Shown here piece after piece: positions 2,011 through 3,368 of a DNA stretch of 16,855 nt (the first letter of the stretch is position 1; every line of letters begins with the position of its first letter). The notes under the pieces are model-generated. The model searched no databases and had not been told where the DNA came from. It was given only the letters and a program-made list of their open reading frames with translations. The stretch covers positions 1 to 16,855 of the forward strand of contig CALBNQ010000231.1 in the NCBI GenBank assembly GCA_937896495.1, given 5' to 3'. This DNA comes from an uncultured archaeon (GTDB taxonomy: Archaea > Thermoproteota > Nitrososphaeria > Nitrososphaerales > Nitrosopumilaceae). The translations under genes and the position numbers were made by a program.

Positions 2011-2076
2011 GGATGCTTCATTACTCATAATCCTCATCATAAAATCAGACGGCTTTTCCGCTCATCATCAGCATCC
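2011..2076 (-). ncRNA. Box C/D guide sRNA (2'-O-methylation guide), predicted to target C34 of a CAU tRNA
   Basis: On the minus strand, 66 nt read in order: terminal stem GGATGC (2076-2071), box C ATGATGA (2068-2062), a 13-nt guide GCGGAAAAGCCGT (2061-2049), box D' CTGA (2048-2045), spacer TTTT, box C' ATGATGA (2040-2034), a 12-nt guide GGATTATGAGTA (2033-2022), box D ATGA (2021-2018, one base off CTGA), and closing stem GCATCC (2016-2011). A T5 run follows at 2010-2006. Near-equal 12-13 nt guides are the hallmark of archaeal C/D sRNAs. The RNA begins 3 nt after the aIF5A stop codon, so it may be processed from that transcript. The D guide is complementary to ACTCATAATCC, an anticodon loop with CAU. 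The fifth base from box D pairs with the C of CAU (position 34). No target was recognised for the D' guide. Confidence 0.85.
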
Positions 2077-2079
2077 GAA

Positions 2080-2490
2080 TTAACTCTTAATTCTCATTAT
2101 TTTGGTTTTATCCATAACAACCCAGTATTCTACATTTTGTCCATTTTCTAATTTTCCTTTTACTTCATCATCAATCAAACTGATATCTAATGTTTCAAAG
2201 GTTTCAGAATCCATTACTTGTATTACATCGCCATTAATGGAGATAATCTGTCCAACTTTTTTGTTAATCATGGGTATATGGATTTGCATGCTAACTGGTC
2301 CCACATGAGGTCGTTTTTGACCATCAAAAATTCCTTCAGCTACAATACGTGCCTTTGCTGAACCGTGTTTTCCAGGTTTTGATGTATCATATTCTTTGAT
2401 TTGGCATGGTTCTCCACTTGGTTGATCTGTATGAGGTAACAAAATGTATGAACCAATTTTCAAAGAACCAAGATCACCAGGTTTACTCAT
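2080..2490 (-). CDS. eif5A: Translation factor aIF5A (hypusine-containing)
   Basis: aIF5A binds the ribosome near the E site and helps peptide-bond formation and elongation through difficult sequences. Its activity depends on a lysine modified to (deoxy)hypusine. The 136-residue protein has the SH3-like N-terminal domain with the modification loop TSKPGKHGSAK; by alignment the modified lysine is K41. An OB-fold C-terminal domain follows (about residues 70-136). Length is normal for the family. The ATG at 2488-2490 lies about 25 bp from a TATA box, so the mRNA is probably leaderless. A box C/D sRNA starts 3 nt after the stop codon, and the diphthamide ligase gene follows, which groups three translation-modification functions. 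Identity is very secure. Confidence 0.96.
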   Translation of the reverse strand: MSKPGDLGSLKIGSYILLPHTDQPSGEPCQIKEYDTSKPGKHGSAKARIVAEGIFDGQKRPHVGPVSMQIHIPMINKKVGQIISINGDVIQVMDSETFETLDISLIDDEVKGKLENGQNVEYWVVMDKTKIMRIKS

Positions 2491-2524: not shown

Positions 2525-3139
2525 CTACTTTAGCTGTTCAAGTATGGATAAACTCATCAAACTAGTCATTTGTAATCCTTTTCGAGTAACATCACGTACA
2601 GTTTGGTCACAATATTTCTTTACACTTTGATGACTCTTTTCACTAACAATCTCAAGTACTACAATATTTTCAGAATAAGGAAATGTGAATTTATCAGGAA
2701 TTAAAGAGAATGTAGATAGTGTTCCAAATCCAGCTTTTTCAAGTTTATCACGTCTTAGTAAGATATGTGCAAGTTCAGAGAAAATATTCTCATCATCATC
2801 AGGTTCCATGTAATATACAGAAACAAAAGTGGTATCTCCAATCAAAAATCTTTGAAACAAGTCATCTTGAATATTAAATACAAAAGAAGTTTTATTTTGA
2901 TTATGAATTGTAAAATCTTTTGAGATTTTAGTATGATCTTTGAATTTTCCTAGAAGATAGTGATTTGTAGCACCTGAAAAATAAGGTTTACTATCAGAAG
3001 AAAAAGTTCCAGTTACAAAATAAAGAGATTCAATATTTTTTGAATTCATCCAAGATTCTTTTAATGAAATGGATTCATGAGAGTGTAAATAAGGAGCACA
3101 CACATAACCTGAAAAAACAGATTCTAATTTAGACAACAA
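2525..3139 (-). CDS. Protein of unknown function (204 aa)
   Basis: I do not recognise a family. The 204-residue product has no signal peptide, membrane segment or cysteine motif. It is a mixed alpha/beta-looking soluble protein with aromatic-rich strands (YLHSH, YFVTGTF, FVSVYYMEPDDDENIF). An acidic stretch (about 112-118) precedes a helix containing LAHILLRRDKLEKAG. A C-terminal segment SVKKYCDQTVRDVTRKG ends in a hydrophobic helix. The start is TTG at 3137-3139, followed at once by a second TTG; no in-frame ATG or GTG occurs upstream for at least 15 codons. Coding potential is supported by its full use of the space, its codon usage and a TATA-like box before it. It is transcribed toward aIF5A with a 34-bp gap. 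Confidence 0.7.
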   Translation of the reverse strand: MLSKLESVFSGYVCAPYLHSHESISLKESWMNSKNIESLYFVTGTFSSDSKPYFSGATNHYLLGKFKDHTKISKDFTIHNQNKTSFVFNIQDDLFQRFLIGDTTFVSVYYMEPDDDENIFSELAHILLRRDKLEKAGFGTLSTFSLIPDKFTFPYSENIVVLEIVSEKSHQSVKKYCDQTVRDVTRKGLQMTSLMSLSILEQLK

Positions 3140-3241: not shown

Positions 3242-3368
3242 CCCGTGGTAGCTCAGCCTGGTAGAGCTTCCGGCTGTAGTTGTTGGCTTTAGATGGCTGA
3301 CCGAATAACAGCATATCAGGCATACAGAAACCGGGTTGTCGGTGGTTCAATTCCGCCCCGCGGGACCA
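3242..3368 (+). tRNA. tRNA-Tyr: tRNA-Tyr(GUA) with a 50-nt intron, CCA encoded
   Basis: A full cloverleaf folds once the intron is removed. Acceptor CCCGTGG (3242-3248) pairs with CCGCGGG (3358-3364), with one T-G wobble. D stem GCTC/GAGC is at 3251-3254 and 3264-3267. Anticodon stem TCCGG (3269-3273) pairs with CCGGG (3331-3335). The loop C-T-GTA-G places anticodon GTA at 3276-3278. The variable region is TTGTC, and the T stem GGTGG/CCGCC encloses TTCAATT. Discriminator A3365 and CCA (3366-3368) are encoded. The C1-G72 pair is the archaeal/eukaryotic identity element for tyrosine, which agrees with the anticodon. Confidence 0.96.
3280..3329 (+). other. tRNA-Tyr intron with bulge-helix-bulge splice site
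   Basis: The 50-nt intron lies after position 37, the canonical site. Central helix CTGT (3274-3277) pairs with ACAG (3324-3327). It is flanked by 3-nt bulges AGT (3278-3280) and AAA (3328-3330), each cut between its second and third base. The outer helix is the CCGG/CCGG anticodon stem. The inner helix inside the intron is weak, so the motif is closer to the relaxed form. Cleavage would be by the archaeal tRNA splicing endonuclease. Confidence 0.85.

Follow-up and report, generated by a model that had tools for sequence, protein, structure and literature searches.

The window, a stretch of 16,855 nt that makes up positions 1 to 16,855 of contig CALBNQ010000231.1 from an uncultured archaeon of the Nitrosopumilaceae, carries a 66-base element on its minus strand, running from position 2076 to position 2011. 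The element begins 3 nt past the stop codon of aIF5A, the gene for translation factor 5A, and ends 45 nt ahead of a diphthamide synthase open reading frame, all three lying on the same strand. In the order in which they are read on the minus strand, the features are these:

2080..2490, minus strand: aIF5A (translation factor 5A), an open reading frame with Pfam matches IF5A-like_N and eIF-5a, directly upstream of the element on the same strand
2070..2076, minus strand: 5' strand of the terminal stem (GGATGCT), 7 bp with 2011-2017
2062..2068, minus strand: box C (ATGATGA), agreeing with the consensus RUGAUGA
2049..2061, minus strand: D' guide (GCGGAAAAGCCGT), 13 nt, predicted target C2510 of 23S rRNA (E. 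coli numbering)
2045..2048, minus strand: box D' (CTGA), consensus and invariant in the genus alignment
2034..2040, minus strand: box C' (ATGATGA), of which TGATGA is invariant in the genus alignment
2022..2033, minus strand: D guide (GGATTATGAGTA), 12 nt, predicted target C34 of elongator tRNA-Met
2018..2021, minus strand: box D (ATGA), differing from the consensus CTGA
2011..2017, minus strand: 3' strand of the terminal stem (AGCATCC), followed by five T residues
1276..1965, minus strand: diphthamide synthase (Diphthami_syn_2), the next gene downstream

Two further features lie on the far side of aIF5A. At positions 3242-3365 of the plus strand lies a gene for tRNA-Tyr(GUA), interrupted by an intron of 50 nt, which the default tRNA scan overlooked and which Rfam and an intron-aware scan both detect; between it and aIF5A is an open reading frame of 204 aa (2525-3139, minus strand) with no Pfam match at an E value of 0.001.

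The element reads GGATGCT-G-ATGATGA-GCGGAAAAGCCGT-CTGA-TTTT-ATGATGA-GGATTATGAGTA-ATGA-AGCATCC and is organized as an archaeal box C/D sRNA, with boxes C, D' and C' in order, two guides and a closing terminal stem, and with complementarity of both guides to stable RNAs, the target base standing at N+5 in each (C34 of tRNA-Met and C2510 of 23S rRNA). This arrangement agrees with the original prediction, which had read a terminal stem and boxes C, D', C' and D in succession on the minus strand, with guides of 13 and 12 nt; box D is non-consensus, being AUGA and not CUGA. A descriptor that was defined post hoc from the site itself (exact boxes C, D' and C', NTGA as box D and at least six of the seven stem pairs) retrieves 2076-2011 as its sole hit in the window and gives none when 300 dinucleotide shuffles are searched on both strands, and the predicted RNA fold of the element has a z of -3.2 and includes the 7-bp terminal stem. 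At threshold, Rfam reports nothing but a tRNA in the whole window. Under relaxed settings the locus shows a likeness to many C/D families, the best being sR41 (30 bits against a threshold of 54), and scores of 17.9 bits for sR-tMet (RF02163, a name linked to Joardar 2011) and of 12.9 bits for sR49 (RF01303, a partial match of 17 nt) lie below the gathering threshold of 50 that applies to each; with no threshold reached, Rfam annotation misses the sRNA.

DNA matching the locus is present in 87 of 95 genomes of the same genus, and in 54 of the 56 good ones (completeness of 90% or more, contamination of 5% or less). The genus alignment holds 88 sequences from 86 genomes, two of which contribute two each, and leaves out one match at a contig end (G029) and six short second matches; 56 of the sequences are distinct. 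Mean identity over the 88 is 0.92 in the sRNA, as compared with 0.79 and 0.75 in the 30-nt flanks, and the cores of both guides, GGAAAAGCC on the D' side and the ten bases GATTATGAGT on the D side, are identical in every one. The terminal stem varies in sequence and stays paired: in the 56 distinct sequences 98.5% of its cells are paired and changes on both sides occur in five of the seven pairs, whereas controls with slid partners give 33-51% paired. Covariance in relatives had been named beforehand as a check of the original prediction, and the stem bears it out.

A covariance model built from the 56 distinct sequences matches in 258 of 330 genomes of the class (183 of 220 good ones, and 50 of 75 genera) and finds nothing in the other 72, although the model includes the guides, so that these counts are not independent of them. 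Sixty-four of the 258 genomes, picked for distance, were searched again, and 66 matches were read as the distant set, leaving aside a second match in G105 and two in G173. The genome of the window itself counts two matches, the second perhaps another guide. In named genomes, a scan with an exact pattern returns at least 119 stretches; among the matches listed, 118 are from archaea and one is from a bacterium (Echinicola, L329), which is taken as chance. The archaeal titles among the matches listed nearly all say Nitrososphaeria or Thaumarchaeota, with four that say only archaeon, and the genera among them are Nitrosopumilus, Nitrosarchaeum, Nitrosopelagicus, Nitrosotenuis, Cenarchaeum and Nitrososphaera.

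The original prediction assigned the D guide to a tRNA with a CAU anticodon, with elongator tRNA-Met preferred, and a gene with the complementary stem-loop is indeed present in the same genome. This elongator-type tRNA-Met (L022) has a GCCGGGG acceptor and a 40-nt intron between residues 30 and 31, where a bulge-helix-bulge can be read by eye (GAG-UGCC-AG/U with GGCA-AU/A-CUC), and all of the 30 best-scoring tRNA-Met copies in the genus, out of 88 genomes with a match, have the same intron and the same target. With the intron at 30/31 the whole target lies in the 3' exon, so pairing needs no intron sequence; on the unspliced precursor there is one further pair, between the D guide and the last intron base. 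The guide forms ten Watson-Crick pairs and one terminal G·U with the tRNA. The claim of a perfect 11-nt pairing thus stands for ten positions and fails at the eleventh, where the tRNA base is U and not C, and a search of the genome for the exact 11-nt complement ACTCATAATCC matches this locus only, because the tRNA, whose 3' exon begins ACTCATAATCT, differs at that last base. The fifth base upstream of box D, a G at position 2026, faces C34 (N+5), which places it opposite the C of CAU just as was proposed.

In G004, a complete relative, 43 tRNA genes were taken unspliced and on both strands, and 11 consecutive Watson-Crick pairs with that genome's own guide occur only in elongator tRNA-Met, one of them on an intron base; the runner-up reaches 10 pairs, no more than 7 of them consecutive. 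Shuffled D 10-mers exactly match any of the 28 known tRNA genes of the window genome in 213 of 200,000 trials, and neither 16S nor 23S rRNA offers the D guide a good site. ARAGORN in its default mode missed the intron-bearing tRNA in the window and, with introns allowed, mistyped or missed several precursors, which were then read by eye. The tRNA-Met target is nearly invariant in the genus, and conservation of the D guide there is therefore not covariation. Guidance of 2'-O-methylation at C34 (Cm34) of elongator tRNA-Met, as originally put forward, is supported as a prediction by complementarity and geometry.

A different relation between guide and intron is found in G115 (family f20), a single distant genome whose D' guide differs from the one for 23S rRNA. 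An intron interrupts its elongator tRNA-Met at 37/38, the usual position (bulge-helix-bulge CUCA-UA/A with UGAG-AG/A, by eye), and its guide GCTTATGAGT forms 11 consecutive pairs with the exon-intron junction ACTCATA/AGCA and 8 with the spliced tRNA. In this respect G115 agrees with haloarchaea, in which, according to the available passages of PMC2584109, intron sequence joins the pairing and methylation must precede splicing. G115 is natural evidence for a precursor tRNA as the partner where an intron splits the target.

The D' guide has a target of its own, the second for this sRNA and one that the original prediction missed. It matches the 23S segment CGGCUUUUCC over 10 nt, and N+5 falls on a C that comparison with rrlB confirms as C2510 in E. 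coli numbering, at a distance of seven residues from A2503 in the peptidyl transferase region; shuffled D' 10-mers match the 16S or 23S rRNA of G004 in 887 of 200,000 trials. In family f1 the 23S sequence is GGCUUUUCC and the guide GAAAAGCC, and outside f1 the 23S sequence is GGCUCUUCC, mostly accompanied by guide GAAGAGCC. The 23S string was recovered in 42 of 68 genomes searched. Guide and rRNA are both known for 40 of the 66 distant sequences, with guide A and rRNA U in 7, G and C in 23 and A and C in one, and nine of the 40 with known 23S lack the D' core. The single A with C (L197 of G337) goes against a joint change of guide and rRNA, and the rRNA U is confined to f1, so the co-change is probably one compensatory event on the tree.

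Box D is variable where box D' is not. All 88 genus sequences keep its UGA core, and none has C in front of it: 55 start the box with T and 33 with A. At position 6 of box C, 50 sequences have T and 38 have G. The two positions vary together (box C/box D is T/T in 50, G/A in 33 and G/T in 5), and with A or T first in box D the usual G-C pair of the terminal kink-turn becomes G·A (33), U·U (50) or G·U (5). Box D is CTGA in several sequences from other families, including several of f12, and in L213 and L215, from another family, C-G and U-A can be read by eye at these positions of boxes C and D. Such a pattern could be expected of a real C/D sRNA that acts solely through its D' guide on 23S rRNA, with a non-consensus box D that disables the D side and a tRNA match that is a relic: box D is ATGA or TTGA in every genus sequence as against CTGA for D' throughout the alignment, and the D' core GAARAGCC is found in 54 of the 66 distant sequences, including families with a different D guide. 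We regard this as very improbable, however, since a relic would not hold ten identical bases in 88 sequences beside flanks of 0.75-0.79 identity, and the same D guide occurs together with a CTGA box D in other families.

Across the 66 distant sequences the D guide is GATTATGAG in 40, GGTTATGAG in 3 and CTTATGAG in one; of the remainder, six have GATCTTGAG, two have GAATCAGAG and 14 have others. A different D guide is present despite a retained tRNA-Met target in G154 and G155 (f4), G165 (f6) and G210 (f1). The 23S guide is kept and the tRNA-Met guide replaced in L212 and L214 (f4), in L222, L226, L229 and L234 (f6) and in L244 (G210). The f4 guide GAATCAGAG was considered for tRNA-Gln(CUG), which the tRNA genes of G004 do not support, and the f6 guide has no matching tRNA among those same genes. 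The guide GATCTTGAG of f15, f11 and f3 (carried by L239, L242, L243, L246, L247 and L248) fits C34 of tRNA-Leu(CAA) from G004 and from the window genome with 11 pairs, and from this complementarity these matches probably represent a sister sRNA directed at the wobble C34 of another tRNA. Family f12 mostly keeps the Met guide, and its elongator tRNA-Met was not found by a sequence-pattern search. The elongator tRNA-Met genes L290-L292 (f21) and L303-L304 (f15) apparently have further introns outside the anticodon loop, and the intron-aware scan makes no call on them.

The position behind aIF5A is common and not universal. Among the 87 other genus sequences, 76 have aIF5A upstream on the same strand, its stop codon 3 nt away in 56 of them and at most about 105 nt away in the other 20. 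The 11 others include two with just 3 and 54 nt of upstream sequence and nine with about 300 nt, in which no aIF5A was detected, and those nine imply that the host transcript is not constant. In L068, L086, L090 and L091 an aIF5A-like C-terminal tail (KIMxxKS or KIMRVKD) stands right before the sRNA with no aIF5A gene within 330-340 nt upstream; the tail may be a signal of the sRNA or a mark of rearrangement. Twenty of the 66 distant sequences, from families f1, f3, f4, f9, f11, f12 and f14, have aIF5A upstream on the same strand (at 3 to 73 nt in 19 and at 243 nt in one); in a further five it is on the opposite strand, and it was not detected in the fetched stretch of 41. The f4 sequences have another D guide and yet lie behind aIF5A, suggesting that the guide was swapped inside a single inherited gene. 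In the window genome the aIF5A transcript is probably the host of the sRNA.

Given its place 3 nt past the stop codon of aIF5A, a gene that it follows in several families, the element might instead be a kink-turn within the 3' UTR of that gene's mRNA, bound by L7Ae as a regulator and guiding no methylation; L7Ae-bound kink-turns in an mRNA leader are described in the accessible portions of PMC5539422 and PMC6298567. This seems very unlikely to us, as an element that only binds protein needs neither two invariant guide cores for tRNA-Met and 23S rRNA, with N+5 on a C in both, nor a guide that follows the intron of a tRNA as in G115, and the 41 distant and nine genus sequences in which aIF5A went undetected argue against it as well. 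That the D guide serves an initiator or tRNA-Ile2 CAU tRNA, instead of or besides the elongator, is extremely unlikely: although each of these could form seven consecutive Watson-Crick pairs plus a G·U, and Cm34 is reported from two other archaea for a tRNA-Met labelled i (excerpts of PMC7668247), the tRNA-Ile2-like CAU tRNA of the window genome and the initiator of G004 (no initiator gene is among the 28 tRNA matches of the window genome) both have a mismatch at 39 and a G·U at 31, where A31 and U39 of the elongator fit exactly, the G115 guide follows the intron of the elongator, and C34 of archaeal tRNA-Ile(CAU), which had been offered as an alternative target and proves the worse fit, becomes agmatidine according to the same excerpts.

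What the locus encodes is, in all probability, an archaeal box C/D sRNA that guides Cm34 of tRNA-Met through its D guide and methylation of 23S C2510 through its D' guide. The two guides match the wobble base of tRNA-Met and a base of 23S rRNA, so a methyl group is probably directed to each. In the window genome the sRNA would probably be cut from the 3' part of the aIF5A transcript, and L7Ae, Nop5 and fibrillarin would assemble on its terminal stem and on its C/D and C'/D' kink-turns. Pairing of the D guide with residues 31-41 of elongator tRNA-Met would place C34 for 2'-O-methylation and could also form on the intron-bearing precursor, and the D' guide would bind 23S rRNA close to the peptidyl transferase centre, placing C2510 for methylation. 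We further entertain, at somewhat less than an even chance, the view that this is one ancient sRNA inherited across the class, often behind aIF5A, which combines a constant guide for 23S C2510 with an exchangeable one that is mostly for tRNA-Met C34 and has been replaced in some lineages.

Guides for Cm34 of tRNA-Met are already known from Pyrococcus, haloarchaea and humans, and what is fresh here is the combination of a tRNA guide and an rRNA guide on one RNA, together with the spread of this double guide through the class. The haloarchaeal sR-tMet is likewise a box C/D RNA for which Cm34 of elongator pre-tRNA-Met is proposed, with a separate gene and with the precursor as a possible partner, and sR49 of Pyrococcus is likewise a predicted Cm34 guide of tRNA-Met (both in the available passages of PMC2584109; a Pyrococcus guide for tRNA-Met is also mentioned in those of PMC7994747). 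The present sRNA differs from sR-tMet in that the tRNA-Met intron of the window genus is at 30/31 and is not needed for pairing, and in that the second guide has a 23S target. Human SNORD97 and SCARNA97 are also box C/D guides for C34 of elongator tRNA-Met (excerpts of PMC6601510), but they are eukaryotic and split one job over two RNAs, and the likeness drawn here is one of function. Archaeal double-guide sRNAs for rRNA similarly have two guides per RNA with N+5 targets, and archaeal 23S methylation sites cluster near the peptidyl transferase centre; in the accessible portion of PMC4644070 both guides of such an RNA act on rRNA within 100 nt, whereas the sRNA described here has one rRNA and one tRNA target. 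In a Pyrobaculum study, as far as its available text goes, tRNA-targeting sRNAs carry a second guide without a target (PMC7994747). None of the literature matches listed, from a search whose scope left most subscription papers outside, is a paper on guide RNAs of Thaumarchaeota (ammonia-oxidising archaea), and the accessible parts of PMC7994747 and PMC4644070 hold no mention of thaumarch-.

If the view of one ancient sRNA with a constant and an exchangeable guide is true, one particle would mark both the RNA that decodes and the RNA at which peptidyl transfer takes place. By the present prediction, the use of guide RNAs to methylate the wobble base of tRNA-Met, which is described in euryarchaea and humans, would extend to another broad lineage. 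Cultured relatives exist, and the two predicted methyl groups are testable in them.
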